Shown here one piece after another: positions 37,973 to 51,731 of a DNA stretch of 64,000 nucleotides (positions within the stretch are counted from its first letter, which is position 1; every line of letters begins with the position of its first letter). Both the position numbers and the translations under genes were made by a program. Source of the DNA: Blastococcus sp. CPCC 205250 (GTDB taxonomy: Bacteria; Actinomycetota; Actinomycetes; Mycobacteriales; Geodermatophilaceae). Below the pieces are notes generated by a model. That model saw nothing but the letters and a program-made list of their open reading frames with translations. It made no database searches and was not told the origin of the DNA. Location: positions 248,001 through 312,000 of the forward strand of contig NZ_JABGCG010000002.1 of the NCBI RefSeq assembly GCF_019799925.1. The letters run 5' to 3'.

Positions 37973-38341
37973 TCAGTCACGGTCGAGCAGCTGGTCGGCG
38001 AGCCAGCCGCCGACGGCCAGCAGCAGACCGCCCAGCACGGCGCTGCCGAAGCCGTCGACGGTCAGCCGGTCGGTCACGGCCGCGGTGATCCCGAGCAGTG
38101 CCGCGTTGATCACCAGCAGGAACAGCCCGAGGGTCAGCAGCACGAACGGCAGCCCGATCAGCCGCAGGATCGGTCCGACGATCGCGTTGACGACCGCGAA
38201 GACCAGCGCGATCCACAGCCACGTGCCGAACTCCCCGAGCGGGCCGTCGGGGTTGGGCAGCACCTCGACGCCGTCGAGCAGGTAGGCGACGCCGTAGAAG
38301 ACGCCGGCCATGAGCACGACCTTGAGCGCGAACTTGATCAC
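37973..38341 (-). CDS. Phage-holin-4-like actinobacterial membrane protein (PF04020 type)
   Basis: 122 residues with four hydrophobic segments: IKFALKVVLMAGVFYGVAYLL, LWIALVFAVVNAIVGPILRLI, LPFVLLTLGLFLLVINAALL and AVLGGLLLAVGGWLADQLL. The VNAIVGPILR and TLGLFLLVINA motifs define the family called phage holin 4_2, which is chromosomal and widely distributed, with no proven lysis role. TAGCGT ends 6 nt before the GTG at 38341, the same spacing as gdh. It is not part of a prophage here. Confidence 0.85.
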   Translation of the reverse strand: MIKFALKVVLMAGVFYGVAYLLDGVEVLPNPDGPLGEFGTWLWIALVFAVVNAIVGPILRLIGLPFVLLTLGLFLLVINAALLGITAAVTDRLTVDGFGSAVLGGLLLAVGGWLADQLLDRD

Positions 38342-38388
38342 GCGGCGACGCTAACGGTGCGCGCGGGTCCGGTGGGGGATCTGACCCC

Positions 38389-38428
38389 GTCTGCGGGTGT
38401 CTAGCGTCGGCCCTAGAGACGCGCAGAC
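38389..38428. repeat. 40-nt imperfect palindrome, copy 2 of 2
   Basis: Ends GTCTG/CAGAC and inner TCTAG/CTAGA are conserved with 23733-23772, including one compensatory change (position 6 and 35: G-C there, C-G here). Here it is between two divergent genes, where a terminator is not expected. The surrounding 38342-38699 gap holds this element, a 22-nt direct repeat and a promoter; I see no gene in it. Confidence 0.65.
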
Positions 38429-38498
38429 GCCGCTCGACGGTCGGCCGCGCGCCCTCCGCCGCCCTCGGGCCGGGGCTGGAGGCCGGGAGCCGGGGCCC

Positions 38499-38548
38499 GG
38501 GCCGGGGCGATCGCCGTCGTAGGTCAGGGCCGGGGCGATCGCCGTCGT
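38499..38548. repeat. 22-nt direct repeat, two copies
   Basis: GGGCCGGGGCGATCGCCGTC plus GT occurs at 38499-38520 and 38527-38548, identical, with a 6-nt spacer; each contains the palindrome GCGATCGC. It lies upstream of the cassette promoter. Confidence 0.7.
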
Positions 38549-38595
38549 CGGCGCGTGGATGCGTAGGGGATCCCCGTACCGCTGCCGGCGATGCG

Positions 38596-38638
38596 GGTAG
38601 TGCGTACGGTGCCCGCGCCGGTGCCCGCTCCCTAGCGT
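38596..38638 (+). promoter_or_regulatory. Cassette promoter P1: conserved box plus TAGCGT
   Basis: Box GGTAGTGCGTACGGTGCC (38596-38613); its TACGGT begins 28 bp before the TAGCGT -10 (38633-38638). Matches P2 (43260) and P3 (48512) in sequence and spacing. ATG of the lipoprotein remnant is at 38700. Confidence 0.65.
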
Positions 38639-38699
38639 CGTCCTCGTCCTGATGAGGCCGGCACGACAGTCGGCCACCCACCGCCTGGAGCCACCGACG

Positions 38700-39194
38700 A
38701 TGTCCAGCGCCACCCCCTTGCCCACCACCGCCCGGGCCCCGCGCCCGTCCGTCCGCCGCCCCGCGTCCCGTGTCGCGGGCGTCCTCGCCGCAGCGGGTCC
38801 GGCCCTCACCCTCGCTGCCTGCGGGAGCAGTGAGCCCGACCCGGCGGACGAGCCCGCCGCCGACGCCTCCGGCCCCTTCGGGGCCTCCGGGGCCGGGGAG
38901 GAGGCCGGCGCGGAGTCCGGGGACCGGCTCGGGGACGAGACCGGTCCGGCGAGGACGCCGGGTCGGAGGCGGCCGGCGAGCGGCTCGCCGTCGGCGACTG
39001 CATCGACGGGCTCCCGGCCGGTGCGGAGGACCTCGGCATGGAGCACGGCGTGGAGCACGGCGTGGAGCACGGCGTCCTCTGCCACGCCCGCGGAGGACCG
39101 GGTCCCGGCCACGGGGTTCCGCGCCCCGACCGCCGGAGCCCTCCTGACGGCAGCGGGCGGGGTGGCGGTCCTCCTGCCATCCCCGCTGGGCTGA
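38700..39194 (+). pseudogene. Decayed Septum_form-type lipoprotein (cassette copy 1)
   Basis: The ATG frame gives a lipoprotein signal (VLAAAGPALTLAACGSS) and an acidic linker up to about residue 75, then turns into an Arg/Ser-rich run unlike coding sequence. The neighbouring frame from about 38945 instead reads AGERLAVGDCIDGLPAGAEDL, matching the Septum_form core of the intact paralogue at 43358 (VQVGECAGSMPDG). So at least one frameshift occurred near 38930-38960. The region also holds a 12-bp tandem repeat (three GAGCACGGCGTG units at about 39040). The C-terminal domain of the paralogue is missing. A sequencing error cannot be excluded. Confidence 0.65.
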
Positions 39195-39244
39195 CCGGGC
39201 AGGCCCGACCCGTCATGGGTACCGGGGCCGGGATCGCCCGCACC

Positions 39245-40399
39245 ATGGTGGGGTCGGCCGCCTGGGACGTCCGGGACGTCCCCGACGCCCGCCGGCGGCG
39301 GCCCGACGTCGACCTGTCCGCCTGGGCGGCCGCCCGCGGGCTGGGGTTCCACGGCAGCGCCAACGCCAGCGGGTGGGCCGCCGCGCTGCCGGGGGAACCG
39401 GAACTGCAGTTCAACGTGGTCCGGGGGACCAGCCCCGGCGGCAACGACGTCTGCCTGTGGCACTGCCGGCACGCCCTCCCCGTGGTGTGGGGACCGGGCG
39501 GCCCGACGCTCGACGACGAGGCGCTCCACGACCTGCGCCTGCACCCACCGCCGCAGCGCCACGAGGGCGCGTCGACCGGGCACGTCGGTCTCCCCTGCAC
39601 CACGGCGGGCGTGGCGGTGCCGCAGGCGGCGCTCCTCCCCCCGTTCACCGTCACCCTGCGCGACGGGCTGCGGAGCCAGGCATCCGAGCAGGCCCCCGAG
39701 CCGGCGGCCGCGCTGCTGGACGGCCCCCTCGGCCGGCTCCTGCGCATCGGCTCCCGGCATGTGGTCTTCGAGCTGTCGTACCGGTTCGGGGTGCTCCTGC
39801 TGCGCCGCAACGGCTACGCCGACCGGGCCGGCATGGACGAGCTCCTGTCCATGCTCGACGCCGGCGCGCAGGCCCTCTGCGTGGCGGCCGCCCCCCGGCA
39901 CGTCCCTGCTCCGTTCGACACCGAGCTCCCCCCGGTGGTCTGGCCCCCGACGGAGTCCGCCGTGCACCGGTCGTGGCCCCCCTCGCCCCTGCTCGAGGAG
40001 GTGCACCGGCTGGCCTGGCGCCACCGCATGCAGCTGGAGGACCCCCGGCACCTCCACCGGGCCCTCCCCACGCTCCCGGTCCCCGGGACGGCGTGGGCGG
40101 TCCTCCGCGGCCGGCTGCCGACGATCGGCCCGCTCGCCCGCATCGCGATGCACACCGAGGCGCCGCTGCCCGACGGCATCGGCCGCACGGCGCTGCTGCT
40201 GGACGCGGGAGCCGCCCCGGGGACGCCGCCCGGGGGGACGCAGCTGCTGGGGTCGGCGGTACCGATGCGCTACGCCGTCGTGGACCGGGTCTTCGCCGTC
40301 TGGGTCACCCGCACCGGTGCCGGTGGCCTGGGGTCCGTCGCCACCCTCCTCACGGCGGGGAGCGCGCTCGCCCGCCGGCTGGGGGTCCCGGTCGACTGA
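39245..40399 (+). CDS. Unrecognised protein, cassette copy 1 (paralogue of 44681-45691)
   Basis: 384 residues, no membrane segment or signal peptide. I do not recognise the family. It aligns along most of its length with the protein at 44681: SANASGWAAALPGEPELQFNVVRG versus SGNASGYTSVLPGDPERQFDVARG, DVCLW, VPQAALLPPF/VPEAALLPPF, WPPSPLLEEVHRL, HRALPTLPVPGTAWAVLRG, HTEAPLP and ARRLGVPVD. It has about 45 extra residues after DVCLWHC. Start is uncertain: ATG 39245 aligns best with the paralogue; ATG 39215 is upstream. The reading frame is open throughout, unlike its two cassette partners. Confidence 0.7.
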   Translation: MVGSAAWDVRDVPDARRRRPDVDLSAWAAARGLGFHGSANASGWAAALPGEPELQFNVVRGTSPGGNDVCLWHCRHALPVVWGPGGPTLDDEALHDLRLHPPPQRHEGASTGHVGLPCTTAGVAVPQAALLPPFTVTLRDGLRSQASEQAPEPAAALLDGPLGRLLRIGSRHVVFELSYRFGVLLLRRNGYADRAGMDELLSMLDAGAQALCVAAAPRHVPAPFDTELPPVVWPPTESAVHRSWPPSPLLEEVHRLAWRHRMQLEDPRHLHRALPTLPVPGTAWAVLRGRLPTIGPLARIAMHTEAPLPDGIGRTALLLDAGAAPGTPPGGTQLLGSAVPMRYAVVDRVFAVWVTRTGAGGLGSVATLLTAGSALARRLGVPVD

Positions 40400-40486
40400 C
40401 CCGAGCGGGTCCGGCCGTGCCCGGGCGCGCCCGGGGGCCCTAGGCTCCCCGGGGCGTCCGGGTCGGCGGGTCGGAGAGGGGTGGCG

Positions 40487-43200
40487 GTGAGCGCTGCTTC
40501 CCGCCTCGGCGGCGCGCTCCCTCCCCGACCCGAGTGGGTGGTCCGCCCGCGTCCGGAGGTCGTCGCCCGGGCGCTGGCCGAGCTCGCGCGCCCCGGGCTG
40601 GTCGGGATCGCCGTCACCGGGGAGGCCGGCTCGGGCAAGACCACCCTCGCCGCCCAGGTGGGTGCGGAGTCCGGGCCGGGACACCCCGTGCTGCTCGTCC
40701 GCGGCACCGCCCTGACGGCCGATCACCCCTACGGCGCGCTGGCGCCCTACCTGGACGACCTGCCCGACGACCGCGGCGACGGCGGGGGACCGCTGGACCC
40801 CCTCGTCGCCACGCGCGCCCTGCTGAACCGGCTGCGCCGGCTGGGGAGGGAGTCCGTCCCCCTGGTCGTGGTCGACAACCTCGGCCAGGTCGACGACCAC
40901 AGCGCCTCCGTGCTGGCCGCGCTCGCCGGGTCCGGTGCGCTGCGCCTGCTGGTGGTCGCCGACGACGTGACGTCGGGCCCCGACGCGGTCGTCGACCTCT
41001 GGCGCGACGGGCTGCTCGGTGCGGTCGTGGTCCCCGAGTGGACCGCCGAGGAGGTCGACGCCGCCGTGACCGCCTACCTCGGCGGCCCGGTGAGCGCCTC
41101 GCTGCGCCGGCACCTGCACCGCTCCAGCGACGGCAACCCGATGCTGCTGCGCCACCTGCTGGAGCACGGCGTGCTCAGCGGCGGCCTGGTGCGCTCGGCC
41201 GAGACCTGGACCCTCGACGCCTTCCGCTGGTCCAGCCCGGAGGTCAGCGGGCTGCTCAGCGCGCCGCTCGCGCGGTGGAACGCGGCCCAGCGACAGGTGC
41301 TCGAACTGGTGGCGCTGACCGACGGCGTGCCCCTCCCGGCCGTCGAGCGGATCCTGCCCGACGACGAGCTGCAGACCCTCGAGCGGGCCGGGATGGTGGT
41401 GGTCGACGCGGCCCGGGGCTGGGCCGGGGGCCCGCCGACGGTCCGGCTGGGCAGCCCGGCCCTCGCCCGGGCGATCAGCCAGCAGGTCCCCTGGTCCCGC
41501 CGCCGCGCCGTCCTGCAGACCGCCCTGTCCCTCGGCGTCGGCACCGGCGACCCCACGGCGCGCCAGGAGCTGGCCCTGGCCGAGCTCGTCCTGGACACCG
41601 GCGCCGTCCTCGACCCCGCGCTGGCCGTACGGGCGGCGCGCACGGCGCTGGCGCACCACGACGCGCCGCTGGCCCTGCGGCTGGCCACCGCGGTGCCCGA
41701 CGGCGAGCACGGGGTGCCCGCGACGGTGCTGCGCTCGCAGGCGCTGCGCTCGCTCGGCCTGGTGGACGACGCCGTCGCCGCGCTGGAGGACCTGCGGAGC
41801 CGGCGGTGGACCACCATGTCCCCGGCCGAGCGCGTCGCGTGGGCGGTGGAGCGGGCGGACACGGTGCGCTTCGCACCGTCGGCCGCACGGCTGGCGGCCC
41901 TGGACGTGCTGGCCTCCGTCCGCGCCGCCGCGCCGGACGAGGACGGCGATCCCGAGGGCATGCTGGACGTCGCCTGGGCCGGGCTGGCCTTCTCCGGTGC
42001 CCACTACGCGGAGATGGTCGACCGGCTCACCCCGATCCACGCCGCCGGCCCCGGCCCGGGGTGGCGCGGTGGTCGATCTGCAGTTCGATCCTCGGCACCG
42101 CGCTGGCCGCCCTCGGGCGCCAGGAGGACGCGATGGCCATGGAGGAGGCGGTGGAGGAGTTCTGGCGACGGGGCGAGCTCCCCCCGGAGCTGGCCGTCGT
42201 CACTGCGGCGGCGCACTTCGCCCTGATGACGTGCGGGTACTGGACGCGGATCCTCGAGCCGGGACAGCGGCAGGGTGCGCAGGACCCCTACCAGGACCCC
42301 CGCAACGGCAGCACCACCGACCTGGGCGTCGGCCTGGTCCACCTGCTCCGCGGCGACGGGCACCGGGCCCGCCCCCTGCTCCGGTCGGCGCTGGACCAGG
42401 CGCTGCTGGCAGATCCCTTCCGGACCGAGGGGCAGGTCCGCGCCGCCCTCGCCTGGGCGGAGGCGCTGACCGGGGACCCCGACGCCGCCCGGGCCGAGCT
42501 CGCCCGGTACGCCCCCACGACCGGCATCGACTACGACGGCCCGATCGCCGCCCAGCACAGCCTGCACGGCGCGCTGCTCGCGCTCGGGGAGGACGTGGTC
42601 GAGGAGGTGGTCGCCCGGGGCCGCGTCCTGCTGGAGCGGGGCCACCTGGGCAACGCCGCGGTGGTGCTGTCCCAGGCCGCCCGGCACGGCTCACCGGCAG
42701 CGGTGGACCTCATCCGGGCGATGCCCATGGACCAGCCGGGGCCGTGGATGCGCGCCGCCCGCGACCACGCCGAGGGCGTCGCCACGGGCGACGCGGCACT
42801 GCTCGTGCGGACGGCGCAGACCCTGCTCGCCGACGGCGACCTCGGCTTCGCCGCCGACGCCGCGACCGCCGCACTCGCCGTGCCCGGCGCACCGAAGGAC
42901 GTCGTCCGGGCCGCCACCCGCATCCAGCAGGCCGCCCGCCGGGGGAGCGCTCCGTCCGCCGCAGCCAGGGACGGTGCGGCCGCACCGGGGCTGCTCACCC
43001 GGCGGGAGGAGGAGGTGGCGGCCCGCGCCTCGGCAGGGCGCTCGAACGCCCGCATCGCCGCTGAGCTCCACCTCTCCGTGCGCACCGTGGAGGGCTATCT
43101 GCAGTCGGCCTTCGGCAAGCTCGGCATCAACAGCCGCACGGAGCTGGCCGCCGCCCTGGAGAAGGCCGGGACCGGTACCGGCACGGCTGCGACCGAGTAG
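40487..43200 (+). pseudogene. LAL-type LuxR regulator with a one-base frameshift (cassette copy 1)
   Basis: The first frame encodes an N-terminal ATPase (Walker A GEAGSGKTTLAAQ) and runs without a stop to about 42055. There the G run at 42058-42061 is one base short relative to the paralogue, and coding continues in the next frame (VARWSICSSILGTALAALGRQEDAM) through the C-terminal LuxR helix-turn-helix (LTRREEEVAARASAGRSNARIAAELHLSVRTVEGYL) to 43200. Adding one base gives 904 residues, against 905 for the intact copy at 45779. GTG start has GGAGAGG upstream. Either a recent pseudogene or an assembly error; the two halves would be truncated proteins. Confidence 0.85.
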
Positions 43201-43259
43201 GGCGGCAGATCGCCGTAGCGCGACGCCGTACCCCTCCGTGGCTGCACACCGTAGGAGCC

Positions 43260-43302
43260 GGTAGTCGCTACGGTGCCCACCCCTCCGGCCCGTTCCTAGC
43301 GT
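43260..43302 (+). promoter_or_regulatory. Cassette promoter P2: conserved box plus TAGCGT
   Basis: Box GGTAGTCGCTACGGTGCC (43260-43277); its TACGGT begins exactly 28 bp before TAGCGT (43297-43302), as in P1. Drives the intact lipoprotein gene (ATG 43358). Remaining sequence in 43201-43357 shows no gene. Confidence 0.7.
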
Positions 43303-43357
43303 CGAACTCGTCAGGAACGGCCGGGATCCCCGGCCACGTCGACCGGAGGAGCCCCCC

Positions 43358-43957
43358 ATGTCCACCACCACCCGCACCCGCCGGACCGGACCGGTCCGTC
43401 GCAGCGCGACCCTCGTCCTCCCCGCCCTCGCGGGCGCCCTGCTGCTCACCGCCTGCGGCGGCTCCGATCCCGCAGCCGACGCCGCTGCCGACGTGGCGTC
43501 CGACGTCGAGGAGCTCACCGAGGCCGGCGTCGACCCCGACGTCATCGCGGCGCTGGAGGAGGCTGCGACCGGGCCGATGCCCGGCGACGGGCCGGTGGCC
43601 GACCCCGTCCAGGTCGGGGAGTGCGCCGGCTCGATGCCCGACGGCGTGATGGCCGCGGCGGTCCCCGCCGTCGACTGCGCCGAGCCGCACCGCACGGAGG
43701 TCTACGCCTCCGTGCCGCTCGACGCCCTGGGGTCCGACTTCCCCGGTGCGGACGCCGTGTACGACGCCGCGAGCCAGATCTGCAAGGACGCCTTCGAGGA
43801 GTACGTGGGGATCCCGTGGACGGAGTCGGAGCTCTGGTACCGCGTCCTGAGCCCCACCCCGGAGAGCTGGGCCGACGGGGACCACACCGCCCTGTGCCTG
43901 GCCTTCGCGGCCGACGGCGACCAGCACACCGGGTCCGTCCGGGGCACGGCCCGGTGA
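43358..43957 (+). CDS. Septum_form-domain lipoprotein (cassette copy 2)
   Basis: 199 residues. Basic N-terminus and hydrophobic core lead to lipobox LLLTAC; the mature protein starts with a Gly/Asp/Ala linker. The core VQVGECAGSMPDG ... VPAVDCAEPHRTEVYASVPL matches the Septum_form family of actinobacterial envelope proteins, with four cysteines probably in two disulfides (GEC, DC, IC, LC). It should be lipid-anchored and face outside. GACCGGAGGAG provides a strong ribosome binding site. Its stop overlaps the next gene (GTGA). Function in the family is not established despite its name. Confidence 0.8.
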   Translation: MSTTTRTRRTGPVRRSATLVLPALAGALLLTACGGSDPAADAAADVASDVEELTEAGVDPDVIAALEEAATGPMPGDGPVADPVQVGECAGSMPDGVMAAAVPAVDCAEPHRTEVYASVPLDALGSDFPGADAVYDAASQICKDAFEEYVGIPWTESELWYRVLSPTPESWADGDHTALCLAFAADGDQHTGSVRGTAR

Positions 43958-44667
43958 GCGCCACCCTCGGCCCGGTCCTGGCACCAGGCGAGCGCCCCAC
44001 CCGCCAGTCCGCGGGCCTGAGCGTCTCGCGGGTGCTCCGCGCGGTCGGTGCCGGAGTGGCACTCGGCGGCCTGGTCGGCATGGTCGCCGATCCGGGTGGC
44101 ACGTACGTGCTGGCCTTCGTCGTCGGCTTCCCCGTCGCGCTGCTCATCACGATCGGCCGCATCACCGGGGCGGTGCGCCGATCGCTGCCGGCCGCCGGGC
44201 CGGTCCCCGGCGGCCGGCTGGCCCTGGCCCGCGTGGAGAGCATCCGGCGGACGGGCGTGGAGCTCAACGACCAGCCGCAGTGCGAGCTGCTGCTGGTCGT
44301 GAGCCCCGAGGCCCTGCAGCCGGGCACCGGGCGGCCCTACGCGACGACGACGCGGGCGATCGTGGACGTCGTCCAGCTGGCCGCCCACCAGCCCGGGTCG
44401 GTGGTCGTCGTGCAGCAGCCCGACCCGGCGCTGCCCGACGTCACCCTCGTGGCCGCGCCGCCGGCCGACGCCGTGGCCGCCGCCCGTGCCGAGGCCCGGC
44501 GGGACCCGGAGAGCGCCGCCATCCCGCCGCTGGACCGGGTGCCGCTGCGCGAGCCGGCGCCGGTGCCGCTGTTCGGCCCGGCGCCCTCGCCGGGCTCGGT
44601 CCTGGCCTGCCTGGTGCTCCTCGTGGCCGCGGGCGGAGCCGTCCTCGCCCCGACCCTGTTCGGCTGA
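43954..44667 (+). CDS. Membrane protein of cassette copy 2 (no copy-1 counterpart)
   Basis: 237 residues. Two N-terminal helices (VLRAVGAGVALGGLVGMVA and YVLAFVVGFPVALLITIG), a soluble middle of about 130 residues beginning RLALARVESIRRTGVELNDQPQCELLLVVSPE, and one C-terminal helix (LACLVLLVAAGGAVLAPTL). The middle resembles OB-like domains of other actinobacterial membrane proteins but I cannot name the family. GTG overlaps the lipoprotein stop, so the two are coupled. The upstream cassette lacks this gene. Confidence 0.7.
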   Translation: MSATLGPVLAPGERPTRQSAGLSVSRVLRAVGAGVALGGLVGMVADPGGTYVLAFVVGFPVALLITIGRITGAVRRSLPAAGPVPGGRLALARVESIRRTGVELNDQPQCELLLVVSPEALQPGTGRPYATTTRAIVDVVQLAAHQPGSVVVVQQPDPALPDVTLVAAPPADAVAAARAEARRDPESAAIPPLDRVPLREPAPVPLFGPAPSPGSVLACLVLLVAAGGAVLAPTLFG

Positions 44668-44680
44668 GGGGGCGGACGGC

Positions 44681-45691
44681 ATGGGCGGCGCGGAGGTCGG
44701 TCTGCGCGAGCGCAGCGGCCTGCCCGCGGACCTCAGGGGATGGGCGGCCGGGCACGGCCTCGAGGCCCTCGGCAGCGGCAACGCGAGCGGCTACACGTCG
44801 GTGCTGCCCGGCGACCCCGAGCGGCAGTTCGACGTCGCGCGCGGGACGACGGTCTCCGGCCGGGACGTCTGCCTGTGGCGCGGCTGCGACGACACCGGCC
44901 GGCCGGTCACCTGCGCGGCGGCGGTGGTGCCCGAGGCGGCCCTGCTCCCCCCGTTCTCGTCCCGGCGCGGGGGCCCGGGCGACCCCGGCGACGGGACCGG
45001 CCGGATCGTGGCCGGGTGGCTGGCGGGCCCGGTCGCGGCCGGACTGCGGCAGGACCGGGTGCGGCTGTCCTCCGCCTACGGGCTGCTCCTGCTCCGGCGC
45101 GACGGCCACGCGGCCGCCGACGCGATGGACCGGCTGCTGCGGCAGGTCGACGAGGCCGCCCGCGACCTCGCCGCCGCCTGCGCCCCGCTGCACCGGCCGG
45201 CGGCCTTCGCCACCGCGCTGCCCGGGGCGCTGTGGCCGGCGCGCGAGGAGTCCGCGGGCCGGGCGTGGCCCCCCTCGCCGCTGCTGGAGGAGGTCCACCG
45301 GCTGGGCCGCCGCTGGGCGATGGCCCTGGAGGACCCGCGCGCCTACCACCGGGCACTGCCCACCGTGCCGGTCCCCGGCACCGCTTGGGCCGTCGTCCGC
45401 GGCGTCCTCCCGGGGTCGTCGACGCCGGCGCGCATCGCCCTGCACACCGAGGCCCCGCTGCCCGGCGGGAGCGGGCGGACCGCGCTGCTGCTGGCGGCCG
45501 GCGCCGCCGCGCCCACCGCCCCGGGAGGCGTCCGGCTGGAGGGGGCCCCGGTCCCGCTGCGGTACGCCGTCCACGGGGGCGTGCTGGCCGTCTGGGTGAT
45601 GCGGCACCGCGACCGCGGGCTGGGCGACGTGGACGCGCTGGTCGAGCACGGGGTGCCGCTGGCCCGCCGGCTCGGCGTCCCCGCGGACTGA
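44681..45691 (+). CDS. Unrecognised protein, cassette copy 2 (paralogue of 39245-40399)
   Basis: 336 residues, soluble, without signal peptide. I do not recognise a family. Conserved with its paralogue: ASGYTSVLPGDPERQFDVARG, DVCLWRGC, PEAALLPPF, LLLLRRDG, WPPSPLLEEVHRL, HRALPTVPVPGTAWAVVRG and LARRLGVPAD. The predicted composition alternates strands and Arg/Leu helices. GAGGGGGCGG lies 5-6 nt before the ATG. The gene sits between the membrane protein and the LuxR regulator, so it may belong to the signalling pathway this cassette encodes. Confidence 0.72.
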   Translation: MGGAEVGLRERSGLPADLRGWAAGHGLEALGSGNASGYTSVLPGDPERQFDVARGTTVSGRDVCLWRGCDDTGRPVTCAAAVVPEAALLPPFSSRRGGPGDPGDGTGRIVAGWLAGPVAAGLRQDRVRLSSAYGLLLLRRDGHAAADAMDRLLRQVDEAARDLAAACAPLHRPAAFATALPGALWPAREESAGRAWPPSPLLEEVHRLGRRWAMALEDPRAYHRALPTVPVPGTAWAVVRGVLPGSSTPARIALHTEAPLPGGSGRTALLLAAGAAAPTAPGGVRLEGAPVPLRYAVHGGVLAVWVMRHRDRGLGDVDALVEHGVPLARRLGVPAD

Positions 45692-45778
45692 GCAGCACGT
45701 TCGCCGGCCGCCGGCCCCGAGGAGGAGTCCTCTAGTCTGCCCGCGGCAACCGGTCCGGACGAGCAACGGGGAGTGGGC

Positions 45779-48496
45779 GTGGGCAGCTCCCTCGGCAGCA
45801 CCGGGCAGCCTGCCGGGCAGCAGGAGTGGGGCGTGCGCCCGCGCCCGGCCGTGGTGACCCGGGTGCTGGCCGAGCTCGACCGCCCCGGCGTCGTGGGTGT
45901 CGCGCTGACCGGGCCGACCGGGTCGGGGAAGACCACGCTGGCCGCGCAGGTGGGCTCGGCGGCCGCCGTCCGGGCCGCCGTCCTGCTGGTCCGGGGCGCC
46001 ACGCTCGCCGCCGACCTGCCCTACGGCGCCCTCTACCCGTACCTCGACGACGTCGCCGACGACCCGGCCGGCCCCGCGGGCGCGACCATCCCGAACCCCC
46101 TGTCGGTGATCCGCGCCCTGCGCCGGCGCCTGCGGGAGCTCGGCGGCAGCACGGCGCCGCTCGTGGTCGTCGACAACCTGGCGCAGGTCGACGCGCACAG
46201 CGGGCACGTGCTGGGCTCGCTGGCCGGGTCGGGCGCGCTGCGCCTGCTCGTCGTGGCCGACGACCTCCGCAGCGGCCCGGACGCCCTCGTCGACCTCTGG
46301 CGCGACGGGCTGCTGGGGGCGGTCGTCGTCCCGCCGTGGGACGCGGCCGAGGTCGACGCCGCCGTCGCCGCGTACCTCGACGGGCCCGTGACGGCCGCGC
46401 TGCGGCGGCACCTGCACGGGTCCAGCGCCGGCAACCCCATGCTGCTGCGCCACCTGGTGGAGCACGGCGTGGCCAGCGGCGGGCTGGTGCGCTCGTCGGG
46501 GGTGTGGACCTTCGACGCGTTCCGGTGGTCCAACCCCGAGGTGAGCGGGCTGCTCGACGCTCCCCTGGCGCGCTGGACGGCCGAGCAGCGGCAGGTGCTG
46601 GAGCTCATCGCGCTGACCGACCGGCTCCCGCTGCCGGCCGTGAGCCGGCTGCTGTCCGCGGACCAGCTGGAGGGGCTGCAGCGCGCGGGGGTCGTCGTCA
46701 CCACCGCCGGCGCGCCGCCCACCGCCGGCATCGCCAGTCCCGCCCTCGCCCGCGCCGTCCGGCAGCAGGTGCCGTGGTCGCGCCGGCGGTCGCTGCTCGA
46801 GCTGGCCCTCTCGCTGGGCGTGGGCGACGGCGATCCCACCGCCGACCAGGAGCTGGCGCTGGCGGCGCTCACGCTGGACGCCGGCGCCGTCCTCGACCCC
46901 GCCCTCGGGGTCCGGGCGGCCGGCACGGCCCTCCTGCGGTTCGACGCCGCCCTCGCGCTGCGGCTGGCCGGTGCCGTGGCCGACGCCGCCCCACCGGACG
47001 CGCCCGCCGTGGCGGCCGAGGTCGTGCGCTCGCAGGCGCTGCGCTCCCTCGGGCAGGTCGAGCGCTCGGTCGAGCTGCTCGAGCGGCTCCGCGCCGGACG
47101 GTGGACGTCGATGTCGCCCGGCGAGCGCGTGGCCTGGGCGGTGGAGCGCGCCGAGACCGCCCGCTACGCCCCGCCGGCCGAGCAGCGGGCCGCGCTCGAC
47201 GCACTGGCCGCCGTCCGTGCCGCCGCGCCGGCCGAGGGCGCCGACCCCGAGGGCATGCTCGACGCCGCCTGGGCGGGCCTGGCGTTCTCCGGCGCCCACT
47301 ACGCCGAGCTGGCCGAGCGGCTGGCGCCCATCCACGCCGCCGGACCGGGCGCCGGGGTCGAGCGCTGGGCGGTCTGCGGGTCCGTCCTCGCCGCGGCGCA
47401 GGCGATCCTCGGCCGCCAGGAGGAGGCCCTGGCGGTCGCGGACGGGGTGGAGGAGGTGTGGCGGCGCGGGGAGCTGCCCCCCGACCTGGCCATCGTCGCC
47501 ATGGCGGGCCTGAACGTCGCCCTGCTGACCTGCGGCCGGTTCACCCGCGTGCTGGACGTCATCCGGCTGGAGGGGGCCCAGGACCCCTACGAGGACCCCC
47601 GCAACGGGAGCACCAACGACCTCGGCCTGGGCCTGGTGCACGTGCTGCGAGGCGACGGCGCCCAGGCGCGGCCACTGCTGCGCGCGGCCCTGGCGCAGGC
47701 GGCGCTGCGCGACCCGTTCCGGACCGAGGGCCAGGTGCGGGCCGCGCTGGCGTGGGCTGAGGCGCTCGCCGGGGACCGGGAGGCCGCCCGGGACGAGATC
47801 GCGCGCTTCGTCCCCACCACCGGGGTGGTCTACGACGGCCCCATCGGTGCCGAGCACAACCTGTCCGGCGCCCGATTGGAGCTCGGCGACGACGTGCACG
47901 ACGAGGTGGTGGCCCGGGGGCGGGCCCTGCTGGAGCTCGGGCACCTGGGCAACGCCGTCGTCGTCCTGTCGCAGGCGGCCCGGCACGGTTCCGCGGCCGC
48001 CGTCGACCTCCTCCGGTCGGTCCCGATGGAGCAGCCCGGGCCGTGGATGCGGGCTGCCCGCGACCACGCCGAGGGCGTGGCCACGGCGGACGCCGGACTG
48101 CTGGTGCGGACCGCGGAGGCGCTCCTCGACGAGGGCGACCTCGGGTTCGCCGCCGACGTCGCCGCAGCGGCCGCGGCGGCGCCCGGGGCCGGGCGGGAGG
48201 AGGTGCGGGCCGCGACCCGGGTGCTGCAGCGGGCGCGCCGTCGTCAGGGGGCGGCGCCGCCCCCGGCCGAGGACCGGGGGGCCGCGCCGGGGCTGCTCAC
48301 CCGGCGGGAGGAGGAGGTCGCCACGCGCGCCGCCCGGGGACAGTCGAACGCGCGGATCGCCGCGGAGCTGCACCTGTCGGTCCGCACCGTGGAGAGCTAC
48401 CTGCAGGCGGCCTTCGGCAAGCTCGGCGTCAACAGCCGCACCGAGGTGGCCGCCGCCCTGCGGCGGGCCGGTGCGGCGGCGGGCACGGACCCGTAG
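45779..48496 (+). CDS. LAL-type LuxR regulator with N-terminal ATPase (intact copy)
   Basis: 905 residues. N-terminal P-loop ATPase: Walker A GPTGSGKTTLAAQVG, Walker B LVVVDNLAQVD, sensor segment LRLLVVADDLRSG. A long helical-repeat middle (about 330-800) is followed by the C-terminal LuxR/NarL HTH: LTRREEEVATRAARGQSNARIAAELHLSVRTVESYLQAAFGKLGVNSRTEV. Large ATP-binding LuxR regulators bind a ligand in the repeat region and ATP in the N-domain. GTG at 45779 follows GGGGAG by 5 nt, matching the start of the other copy. Conserved boxes precede the lipoprotein genes and a box follows this gene. Confidence 0.87.
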   Translation: MGSSLGSTGQPAGQQEWGVRPRPAVVTRVLAELDRPGVVGVALTGPTGSGKTTLAAQVGSAAAVRAAVLLVRGATLAADLPYGALYPYLDDVADDPAGPAGATIPNPLSVIRALRRRLRELGGSTAPLVVVDNLAQVDAHSGHVLGSLAGSGALRLLVVADDLRSGPDALVDLWRDGLLGAVVVPPWDAAEVDAAVAAYLDGPVTAALRRHLHGSSAGNPMLLRHLVEHGVASGGLVRSSGVWTFDAFRWSNPEVSGLLDAPLARWTAEQRQVLELIALTDRLPLPAVSRLLSADQLEGLQRAGVVVTTAGAPPTAGIASPALARAVRQQVPWSRRRSLLELALSLGVGDGDPTADQELALAALTLDAGAVLDPALGVRAAGTALLRFDAALALRLAGAVADAAPPDAPAVAAEVVRSQALRSLGQVERSVELLERLRAGRWTSMSPGERVAWAVERAETARYAPPAEQRAALDALAAVRAAAPAEGADPEGMLDAAWAGLAFSGAHYAELAERLAPIHAAGPGAGVERWAVCGSVLAAAQAILGRQEEALAVADGVEEVWRRGELPPDLAIVAMAGLNVALLTCGRFTRVLDVIRLEGAQDPYEDPRNGSTNDLGLGLVHVLRGDGAQARPLLRAALAQAALRDPFRTEGQVRAALAWAEALAGDREAARDEIARFVPTTGVVYDGPIGAEHNLSGARLELGDDVHDEVVARGRALLELGHLGNAVVVLSQAARHGSAAAVDLLRSVPMEQPGPWMRAARDHAEGVATADAGLLVRTAEALLDEGDLGFAADVAAAAAAAPGAGREEVRAATRVLQRARRRQGAAPPPAEDRGAAPGLLTRREEEVATRAARGQSNARIAAELHLSVRTVESYLQAAFGKLGVNSRTEVAAALRRAGAAAGTDP

Positions 48497-48511
48497 GAAC
48501 ACCGCAGGACC

Positions 48512-48555
48512 CCGTAGTCGGTACGGTGCCGCGCCCCCGGCCGGCGCAGCAGCCT
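48512..48555 (+). promoter_or_regulatory. Cassette promoter P3: conserved box plus CAGCCT
   Basis: Box CGTAGTCGGTACGGTGCC (48513-48530) contains a perfect CCGTA-N5-TACGG dyad (48512-48526). A -10-like CAGCCT (48550-48555) begins exactly 28 bp after the start of TACGGT, as in P1 and P2, and ends 6 nt before the ATG at 48562. Confidence 0.6.
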
Positions 48556-48561
48556 CGGTGC

Positions 48562-48714
48562 ATGCCCACCACCACCCTGTCCCCCGTGCCCGACGACGTC
48601 GTCCTGCGGCTGGCCGTGCAGCGGGCCCTGGACCACCGCGCGCGGCGCCGGCGGGCGGCCGTCCGCCGGTCGGCGCTGCTGCTGACCACCGCGCCGCCGC
48701 CGGTCCGCCGCTGA
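48562..48714 (+). CDS. Small basic protein downstream of cassette promoter P3
   Basis: 50 residues, very basic, no cysteines (DDVVLRLAVQRALDHRARRRRAAVRRSALLL). The start MPTTTLS resembles MSTTTRT of the lipoprotein, but no lipobox follows, so it may be a remnant of a third cassette start or a real small protein. Support comes from the promoter box and a -10 at leaderless spacing. It ends 70 nt before the AAA ATPase gene. Confidence 0.45.
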   Translation: MPTTTLSPVPDDVVLRLAVQRALDHRARRRRAAVRRSALLLTTAPPPVRR

Positions 48715-48784
48715 CCGCGACACGGGCTAGGTAGTTCTACGGATGTCTACGGCGGTCGCTAGACGACGGCATACGGTGCTCGAC

Positions 48785-49975
48785 GTGGATCCCGTCCGGA
48801 ACCCCTACGCGCCCGGCGCCGGCCAGCGCCCGCCCGAGCTCGCCGGCCGGGACGACGAGCTGTCGGCCTTCGACGTCGTCCTCGAGCGGATCGCCCGCGG
48901 GCGGCCGGAGCGTTCCCTCGTGCTCACCGGGCTGCGCGGCGTCGGCAAGACCGTGCTGCTCAACCAGCTCCGGTCCGCCGCGATCGGCCGCGGCTGGGGC
49001 ACCGGGAAGATCGAGGCGCGGCCGGACCAGTCGCTGCGCCGCCCGGTCTCCTCGGCGCTGCACATGGCGCTGCGGGAGCTGCGGCACCCCGACCAGGAGT
49101 CGATGGACGCCGTCCTCGCGACCGTGAAGGCCTTCGCCCAGCGCGCGGTGAGCAGCGACGCGAAGGTGCGCGACCGGTGGCAGCCGGGCATCGACGTCCC
49201 CGCGGCCAGCGGCCGGGCGGACTCCGGGGACATGGAGATCGACCTGGTGGAGCTGCTCAGCGACGCCGCCGGGCTGGCCGCGGACGTCGGCCGCGGCATC
49301 GCCCTGTTCATCGACGAGATGCAGGACGTGCAGGCACCCGACGTCTCGGCCATCTGCGCGGCCTGCCACGAGCTCTCCCAGCAGGGCGCGCCGCTGATCG
49401 TCGTCGGTGCGGGCCTGCCGCACCTGCCGGCGGTGCTCAGCGCCTCCAAGAGCTACTCCGAGCGGCTCTTCCGCTACCTGCGCATCGACCGGCTGGACCG
49501 CACCGCGGCCGACCGGGCGCTGCTGGCCCCCGCCGAGCGGGAGGACGTCACGTTCGAGCCGGCGGCCCTGGACGCCCTCTACGCCGCCGCCGACGGCTAC
49601 CCCTACTTCGTGCAGGCCTACGGCAAGGTCACCTGGGACGTCGCGGCCGCCTCCCCCATCACCGCCGGTGACGTCGCCATGGCCGCCCCGGTCGCCGAGG
49701 CCGAGCTCGCCGTCGGCTTCTTCGGCTCGCGCTACGACCGGGCCACCCCCGCCGAGCGGGAGTACATGCACGCCATGGCCGAGCTGGGCGGGCCGCAGGG
49801 CGCCGCGGTCGCGACCTCCGAGGTCGCGGTCTCCCTCGGCCGCAAGCCCGCCTCGCTCTCCCCCGCGCGCGACTCGCTCATCAAGAAGGGGCTGGTCTAC
49901 TCCGCCGAGCGCGGGCAGATCGCCTTCACCGTGCCGCACTTCGGCCGGTACCTGCTCAGCCACCCCGCCGACTGA
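48785..49975 (+). CDS. AAA/STAND-like ATP-binding protein
   Basis: 396 residues. It opens NPYAPGAGQRPPELAGRDDELSAFDVVLERIARGRPERSLVLTGLRGVGKTVLLNQL, with Walker A GLRGVGKT; Walker B is ALFIDEMQDVQ. The C-terminal about 80 residues (AELGGPQGAAVATSEVAVSLGRKPASLSPARDSLIKKGLVY) form a winged helix. This is a common actinobacterial ORC/Cdc6-like or archaeal-type ATPase of unknown role. GTG at 48785 is preferred to 48743 because TACGGT lies 7 nt upstream. Sequence repeats (GTAGTTCTACGG, GTCTA/TAGAC) fill its promoter region. Confidence 0.8.
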   Translation: MDPVRNPYAPGAGQRPPELAGRDDELSAFDVVLERIARGRPERSLVLTGLRGVGKTVLLNQLRSAAIGRGWGTGKIEARPDQSLRRPVSSALHMALRELRHPDQESMDAVLATVKAFAQRAVSSDAKVRDRWQPGIDVPAASGRADSGDMEIDLVELLSDAAGLAADVGRGIALFIDEMQDVQAPDVSAICAACHELSQQGAPLIVVGAGLPHLPAVLSASKSYSERLFRYLRIDRLDRTAADRALLAPAEREDVTFEPAALDALYAAADGYPYFVQAYGKVTWDVAAASPITAGDVAMAAPVAEAELAVGFFGSRYDRATPAEREYMHAMAELGGPQGAAVATSEVAVSLGRKPASLSPARDSLIKKGLVYSAERGQIAFTVPHFGRYLLSHPAD

Positions 49976-49997: not shown

Positions 49998-51731
49998 TCA
50001 GCGGGCGGCGGCGCGGGTGCGCAGCGCCAGGACGGCGACGTCGTCCTCCGCGCCGTCGGCGAGCATCACCGACAGCAGCCGGTCGCACAGCTCCTCCAGC
50101 GGCCGGTCCCCGAAGCGGGCCAGCAGCCGGCGCACCTGCTCCCGGCCGTCGTCCAGGGGGACGCCGCGGCGCTCGAACAGCCCGTCGGTGAACAGCAGCA
50201 CCGTGGCGTCGTCGGGCAGGTCCGCCGCGCCGTCGGCCCGGGGACCGCGCCAGCCGATGCCCAGCGGGGGGCCGATCGGCGCGGTGAGGTCGGTGACGCG
50301 GCCGTCGGGCCCGAGCATCAGCGGCTCCGGGTGCCCGGCCGACGACCAGCGCAGGGTGCGGCCGCCGGCGCCGTCGTGCTCGACCCGGCAGACCAGCGCG
50401 GTGGCCATGGTGGGCACCGCCAGCCCCACCAGGGCGTGGTCCACCCGCCGGAGGAGGCCGGCCGGCTCCTCGCACCGGTCGAACGCGATGCCCCGCACCA
50501 GGGTCTTGACCTGGCCCATGGCCGCCGCGGCCTCGATGTCGTGGCCCATCACGTCGCCGATGACGAGGACCATGTCGCCGTCGGGCTGGAGGAAGCTGTC
50601 GTACCAGTCGCCGCCGATGGAGACGCCGCGGGTGGCCGCGCGGTAGCGGACCGCGGTCTCCAGGTGCGGCTGCTGCACCGGCGGCGAGAGCAGGGACAGC
50701 TGCAGCCGCTCGGCGACCTGCTGGTTGGCCGCGGCGAGCCGGGCGTTGTCCAGCGCGAGGGCGGCCCGCCGGGACGCGACCTCGGCGGTGCGCAGCTCGA
50801 CGTCGGTGTGCGGCCCGCGGTCGGGCCCGTTGACCAGGGTGAGGGCGCCGAACTGCTCGCCGCGGGCCAGCAGCGGGAAGGTGGCGACGGCGGAGGGGTG
50901 CAGCGGCGCCAGGGCCTCGCGGCTGACCTCGTCGGCCACCATCTGCTCGACGTGCGCGCTGGTCACCTGCGGGATCACCACCGGCTGGCCGCTGCGCAGC
51001 GCCGTCGGCACCGGGGCGTGGGGGCTGTTGCTGCCCACCCGGGCGTCGGCGTAGCGGTGCATGGCCTCGACCATGGCGGGGTCGCGGTGGGCGCGGCCGA
51101 CGTCCCGGCGGGAGCCGTCGGGGTCCACGACGCTGACCAGGCACCAGTCGGCCAGCAGCGGGACGACGAGGCGGGCGAAGCGGCTCACGGCCTCGTCGCT
51201 GTCGAGGGTGGACGTCATGGCCTGGCTGATGTCGCCGAGCAGCATGAGGTGGCGCCCGGCCAGCTCGGCCTCCGCGGCGGCGTCGGCGGCGCGCAGGGCG
51301 GCCTCGGCGGCGCGCTGGGCGGCCTCCTCGCGGGCGGCGACGGCAGCGGCGCGCTCGTCCTCGGTGCGGCGGCGCTCGGTGACGTCGTCGTAGGTCACCA
51401 CGAGCCCGGCATCGGTGCGGAAGGCGTCGGCCTGGAACCACGTGTCCAGGGGCTCGAAGTAGGCCACCGTGCGGCCGGACTCACCGGTCCGGAACACCGA
51501 CGTGTACAGCTCCTGGAAGGGGCTGCCCACGGCCTCGGGGAACGCCTCCCAGATGCCGCGGCCCAGCAGTTCCTCGACGGTGCGCCCCAGGACCTGCGCG
51601 CCGGCGGGGTTGATGTAGCTGAAGCACCAGGCCTCGTCGAGGACGAACAGCGGGCGGTCCATGCCCTCGACGGCCTGCACCAGCAGGTCGCCGCGCGGCG
51701 GGAGCGCCCGGTCCGTGATCATGGGATCCAC
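49998..51731 (-). CDS. PAS-GAF-PP2C (RsbU-type) phosphatase
   Basis: 577 residues. PAS (about 15-125, with LFVLDEAWCFSYINPAGAQVLGRT), an Ala/Glu-rich coiled coil (about 125-170), GAF (about 180-345, LVVPLLADWCLVSVVDPDG) and PP2C (about 355-575; GGDWYDSF, IGDVMGHD, LLFTDGLFERR, EDDVAVLALR). The GAF motif is close to that of 18502-21102, so they are paralogues. It probably dephosphorylates an anti-anti-sigma factor. It is divergent from an RsbW-like kinase gene (51865). Start GTG at 51731; ATG at 51722 is possible. Confidence 0.86.
   Translation of the reverse strand: MDPMITDRALPPRGDLLVQAVEGMDRPLFVLDEAWCFSYINPAGAQVLGRTVEELLGRGIWEAFPEAVGSPFQELYTSVFRTGESGRTVAYFEPLDTWFQADAFRTDAGLVVTYDDVTERRRTEDERAAAVAAREEAAQRAAEAALRAADAAAEAELAGRHLMLLGDISQAMTSTLDSDEAVSRFARLVVPLLADWCLVSVVDPDGSRRDVGRAHRDPAMVEAMHRYADARVGSNSPHAPVPTALRSGQPVVIPQVTSAHVEQMVADEVSREALAPLHPSAVATFPLLARGEQFGALTLVNGPDRGPHTDVELRTAEVASRRAALALDNARLAAANQQVAERLQLSLLSPPVQQPHLETAVRYRAATRGVSIGGDWYDSFLQPDGDMVLVIGDVMGHDIEAAAAMGQVKTLVRGIAFDRCEEPAGLLRRVDHALVGLAVPTMATALVCRVEHDGAGGRTLRWSSAGHPEPLMLGPDGRVTDLTAPIGPPLGIGWRGPRADGAADLPDDATVLLFTDGLFERRGVPLDDGREQVRRLLARFGDRPLEELCDRLLSVMLADGAEDDVAVLALRTRAAAR

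Follow-up and report, generated by a model that had tools for sequence, protein, structure and literature searches.

LAL regulators are large LuxR-type transcription factors and many of them, like MalT, respond to small-molecule ligands. The signal is known for only a minority of LALs. The group has been described as poorly studied (PMC3282765). MalT itself is said in one account to be kept inactive by MalY and other partner proteins (PMC10427625). TtfA (trehalose monomycolate transport factor A) is an accessory to the lipid transporter MmpL3; it is anchored in the membrane, has its C terminus in the cytoplasm, binds MmpL3 and is found at poles and septa (PMC6593404), and the title of its structure paper, as cited in PMC7458404, calls the fold 'atypical'. 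Class I type III secretion chaperones have a fold that also occurs in YbjN proteins, which one source describes as having no secretion role (PMC5398634). A search of the literature on the Septum_form family (PF13845) and on LuxR regulators of the Geodermatophilaceae returned nothing useful. Here, we describe a genomic island in which a LAL of a narrow subfamily is encoded with a Septum_form lipoprotein, a membrane protein and a protein, U, whose N-terminal domain is modelled with the TtfA fold. The cassette offers a compact and testable case for the study of LAL signals.

Gene order and history of the island

The window analysed is a stretch of 64,000 nucleotides, positions 248001-312000 of its contig in a 5.28-Mb draft genome of 357 contigs (Blastococcus sp. 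CPCC 205250, family Geodermatophilaceae, hereafter the host); all cassette features of the window given below lie on the + strand. An earlier note on this DNA had described a duplicated cassette, and two tandem cassettes with identical gene order are indeed seen at 38.6-48.5 kb, each running lipoprotein (PF13845), membrane protein, U, LAL (LuxR-type). Together they fill a 10.4-kb island (38342-48742) bordered by a holin-like gene (37973-38341) and an AAA ATPase gene (48743-49975). These border genes are only ~140-165 bp apart in G001, G002, G003 and G004 (same genus) and in G007, the site being empty in all four same-genus relatives compared, and several other family members hold unrelated genes there, which makes the site a variable spot. 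By eye, those genes include CheB-like, VTT-like and TetR-like ones, among others. The G+C content is 78.5% in the island and 75-76% in the 10-kb flanks, and a PAS-GAF-SpoIIE phosphatase gene (49998-51731) adjoins the AAA ATPase gene. Within the genus, gain in the host lineage is the simpler reading, while an older presence of the cassette at the site followed by losses is possible, given that two genomes of another genus (G130 and G119) carry related cassettes at the same site.

The proposed paralogy of the parts is borne out by identities of 69-72% between LAL A and LAL B and of ~54% between U A and U B, where A is the upstream and B the downstream copy. Every gene of copy B is open. The description of one copy as decaying and the other as intact stands only in part. 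The lipoprotein and membrane genes of copy A have collapsed into a remnant (38700-39194) that keeps the lipoprotein signal, the lipobox and, out of frame, a piece from the beginning of the Septum_form domain; a deletion together with a frameshift cost it this domain and most of the membrane gene. The last codons of the membrane gene and the spacer persist at ~39144-39209, with 85% DNA identity over 66 bp to the corresponding remnant in G119; hence both copies once had the membrane gene, which was not, as had been thought, a part of the downstream copy only. Beyond this remnant the description oversimplifies: U A (39215-40399; 394 aa, start codon chosen by alignment) is open, the predicted upstream operator is intact, and LAL A (40481-43200) has a single frameshift and evolves no faster than LAL B. 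This frameshift, between 42046 and 42058, is the one-base lesion noted earlier; because a single base is involved, within a GC-rich stretch of a draft assembly in 357 contigs, it may be recent or a sequencing error.

In the LAL tree the branch lengths are 0.18 (LAL A) and 0.16 (LAL B), and LAL A clusters with the homologues of the other genus (g6) and not with LAL B, at moderate support (86/85). Equal branch lengths and this grouping indicate, with moderate support, that the tandem duplication is old. Pairwise dN/dS (NG86, usable comparisons only) is 0.31-0.46 for LAL and 0.58-0.68 for U. Rows in the wrong frame were left out, namely G130 in the 3' half of LAL for dN/dS, C96 in the lipoprotein alignment and G064 in the U tree.

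Cassette proteins and their occurrence

LAL B (45773-48496; 907 aa) has a P-loop NTPase domain and a C-terminal GerE HTH. Its Walker A motif is intact (GPTGSGKTT, with GxxGxGKTT invariant across the family alignment). AAA_16 scores 31.1 bits in the window LAL, just under the cut-off of 32.6, and 34.8 bits in G119, while the HTH (PF00196, residues 842-893) reaches 53.1 bits against a cut-off of 23.5; the region in between, where MalT-like STAND proteins have a TPR-type sensor, matches TPR_12 at only 17.3 bits against a cut-off of 30.1. The subfamily comprises six loci in four of the 115 family genomes, and a short PF13845 partner lies beside the LAL at five of these loci and is decayed at the sixth. 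LALs outside the family are distant from this subfamily, and cassette partners for them were rejected, given that the PF13845 genes of the compared genomes are located elsewhere. One genome of another family carries two distant LAL genes in tandem (G138:C12:465917-471314).

The lipoprotein of copy B (43358-43957; lipobox LLTACGG, read from the sequence) is of the Septum_form type, as had been stated, with a PF13845 score of 54.2 bits against a cut-off of 25; the scores are 46-48 bits in G130 and G119 and 31.2 bits in C96. The full-length model is not matched, the window match covering positions 2-119 of 227. In the 26 genomes searched for PF13845, the short forms adjoin the LAL in LAL-bearing genomes. 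A PDB sequence search with the lipoprotein gave no match. The membrane gene (43954-44667; 237 aa) shares 4 bp with the lipoprotein gene at the latter's stop (43954-43957) and is followed by a gap of 13 bp. Its product has hydrophobic segments at residues 27-45, at 52-70 and near the C-terminus, with a soluble middle part, no match above cut-off in the domain search and a 61% identical homologue in G130. It is intact at only two loci, in two of the 115 family genomes.

U B (44681-45691; 336 aa) consists of a TtfA-like N-terminal domain plus a C-terminal domain. It is ~60 residues shorter than U A and lacks two segments present in the homologues, while its model keeps the core fold; neither U A nor U B has a hydrophobic segment. 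U was rightly called unrecognised, with no match in Pfam, NCBIfam, PADLOC or PHROG. A defence or phage origin was rejected for the lipoprotein, the membrane protein and U, none of which has a PADLOC or PHROG match. Searching PDB sequences with the U profile returned no match, and Foldseek alone gave no match for U at an E value of 0.001 or better. Using AlphaFold2 and a seven-row alignment, we modelled a G002-type homologue of U (mean pLDDT 81, pTM 0.83). For its residues 32-260, VIA-align placed TtfA at the top (Z 13.4, rmsd 3.4, 163/178 residues), followed by CCDC47 chains and then type III chaperones. A separate model of U B (pLDDT 74) again had TtfA at the top (Z 13.3, 150/178 residues), with chaperones at 7-8.8. 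Predicted models on the U side thus share the fold of TtfA (PDB 6t84) in their N-terminal domain, at Z scores well above the next unrelated rows. Profile comparison of this domain by hhalign with four sequences from Mycobacteriaceae genomes, which we take to be TtfA from their position next to clpB and which also bear a TM segment, gave a probability of 0.4% and an E value of 0.16 from shallow alignments. The comparison is not significant, so the relation is a structural one, and we rejected U as a TtfA orthologue, as it has neither a TM anchor nor a significant profile match. Compared with each other by hhalign, the two halves of U give their best local match in register, if weakly (E 0.034), and chaperone folds align to both; an internal duplication within U is suggestive.

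The neighbourhood recurs at independent loci; its absence from related genomes would, by the earlier note, have spoken against the module. G130 has a complete single cassette in the same order at the same site, and G119, of the same genus, has the lipoprotein and the LAL, separated by a collapsed membrane gene, but lacks U. At another place in the host genome there is a third cassette with a different gene order (C96, L009), which has a homologue in G002; both run LAL, then a Septum_form protein with one TM helix, then U. In both, the LAL is directly preceded by a globin gene of bacterial-like type (PF01152, 57.7 bits in L009; L009:12724-13104 and L023:13537-13917, both on the - strand), probably in the same operon. 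The expectation that all four parts would always occur together did not hold: the membrane protein is rarely intact, and U, present in eight of the 115 family genomes, stands without the LAL in five of them (G001, G024, G078, G082 and G064, truncated in the last). Of 296 genomes sampled across the phylum, four have U, the host included and one match being weak, and the named homologues in a GTDB scan are all Geodermatophilaceae (Blastococcus, Trujillonella and Geodermatophilus). In G001 (Trujillonella endophytica) the U gene is solitary and is directly followed by a serine/threonine kinase gene (L021:8050-11115).

A predicted operator shared by the cassettes

A 15-bp dyad with half-sites precedes both operons of the window, the same-site homologues in G130 and G119, and a putative 50-aa ORF at the end of the island. 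In copy A the predicted operator/promoter (38574-38638) has a half-site CCGTAC at 38574, the dyad at 38595-38609 and a -10-like TAGCGT at 38633-38638. Copy B (43213-43302) has half-sites at 43213, 43226 and 43249, the dyad at 43259-43273 and TAGCGT at 43297-43302. The third predicted operator (48491-48555; half-site 48491, dyad 48512-48526, -10-like CAGCCT at 48550-48555) has the ORF (48562-48714) directly 3' of it. The putative ORF product is basic and possibly leaderless, with no homologue in any other locus compared. All five upstream sequences share the dyad type CCGTAGTNNGTACGG, then TGCC, and the hexamer YAGSNT lies 23 bp 3' of the dyad in five of five. A CCGTA half-site, read from the sequence, stands ~21-22 bp 5' of the dyad arm in four of five; at the same spacing copy B has a degenerate CCGTGG, plus additional half-sites. 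If transcription starts ~7 nt after the hexamer, the dyad would be centred near -43.

The window contains three exact matches to TACGGTGCC-N19-YAGSNT, where 0.03 are expected. The 17-bp core occurs exactly seven times in the 115 genomes, three times in the window and once each in G130 and G119, the only other genomes with cassettes of the same type, so that five of the seven occurrences belong to cassettes. The remaining two are in Geodermatophilus genomes, where the half-site array and the cassette were not seen. A reversed control pattern occurs four times in the 115 genomes, at scattered positions. Only exact matches are informative, as a motif search with two mismatches did no better than the control. 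The exact core is absent from the G002 genome, and none of the three host matches falls in the C96 cassette; hence the LAL branch of these two loci presumably reads another sequence. Confinement of the shared element to the cassettes suggests that the LAL's targets are its own genes, that is, autoregulation. With the recurrent neighbourhood, this agrees with the earlier proposal of a self-contained module that includes a LAL of its own.

Readings of the cassette and comparison with known systems

We put at about one half the probability that the locus is an autoregulated cassette of a STAND-type, MalT-like LAL in a variable island, with its partners acting as sensors. Sequence comparison gives good support to the pairing and to a shared element confined to the cassettes; binding by the LAL, the direction of control, the contacts and the signal are what we infer. 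The LAL in its ATP state would oligomerise and bind the dyad and half-sites near -43, over the -35 region, turning on its own operon in the manner of a class II activator. From its predicted place outside the membrane, the Septum_form protein would report an envelope condition to the cytoplasm via the membrane protein, or at the third locus via its own TM helix, so that the cassette may sense the envelope. U, as a cytosolic partner with a possible chaperone fold, could hold or release the LAL by analogy with the sequestration of MalT by MalY and others. As G119 has neither U nor the membrane protein intact, these two would not be needed in all versions of the circuit.

The predicted target operon holds candidate sensors and candidate outputs alike and so fits either direction of signalling. 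The main rival reading, at clearly lower odds, is that the lipoprotein, the membrane protein and U are an output set for envelope maintenance or lipid handling and that the LAL responds to a small-molecule ligand of its own. All three genes belong to the operon that the LAL itself is predicted to target, the N-terminal domain of U is modelled with the fold of an MmpL3 accessory factor, and five family genomes have U alone, with no LAL of this kind. However, a fold similarity shows no function, sequence homology with TtfA is not detectable and the cassette has no transporter gene. The G119 locus, which lost U and the membrane protein and kept the lipoprotein and the LAL, better fits a regulator-lipoprotein pair.

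The upstream element could instead be another inherited feature, either a site for some other regulator or similarity left over from the duplication of the DNA, given that the five upstream regions share an ancestor and some similarity is expected without function. We consider this unlikely: copies A and B have drifted apart in the upstream sequence around the element and yet preserve its dyad symmetry, its half-sites and the 23-bp spacing to the -10-like hexamer, the third element precedes an unrelated ORF, and the core is nearly absent from cassette-free genomes. The least probable alternative is a decaying accessory island that has no function at present and is being lost from a variable site at which it had been acquired or retained. 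The empty or otherwise occupied site in relatives, the collapsed genes of copy A and G119, the missing U of the latter and the presence of the LAL in only 4 of 115 genomes would all fit. Against it are the dN/dS values of LAL and U, the predicted operators and spacing kept at all same-site copies, and the open genes of copy B. Our best reading is the autoregulated cassette.

What is new here is the dyad and half-site element and the TtfA fold modelled for the N-terminal domain of U, the LAL-based regulation being otherwise of a known kind. It is doubtful that the cassette is a novel type of transmembrane signalling circuit in actinobacteria, in which an outside lipoprotein and a membrane protein control a STAND/LAL factor via a cytosolic TtfA-fold protein, with feedback confined to the cassette; if it were, TtfA would belong, as a single branch, to a wider group of envelope adaptors located in the cytosol. 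The cassette is testable through its predicted operator and its TtfA-like fold: it offers a defined predicted operator with few or no other exact genomic sites, and surface as well as soluble partners.

Among known systems, class I type III secretion chaperones and YbjN-like proteins (SycT, Spa15 and DR1245) align to the core fold of the N-terminal domain of U (Z 7-8.8) and to that of its C-terminal domain (Z ~6.6), scores in a range (6.6-8.8) where common arrangements also score, and the cassette has no secretion system or effector. For the Septum_form family, the cassette lipoproteins, like the C96 protein, exceed the curated cut-off but match only about half of the 227-position model, and in most of the family genomes examined there is a further, longer match away from any LAL. 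TtfA has an N-terminal TM helix (residues 2-24) and homologues reported among mycolate producers (PMC6593404), whereas U lacks this helix and carries an extra C-terminal domain. The modelled occurrence of the 'atypical' fold outside mycolate producers, joined to a second domain, suggests an independent route to the role of this fold. With MalT and other LAL regulators the window LAL shares its length of ~900 aa, the N-terminal P-loop NTPase and the C-terminal GerE HTH; it differs in forming a narrow subfamily, in being encoded with a Septum_form protein, a membrane protein and U, and in having predicted targets confined to its own cassette.
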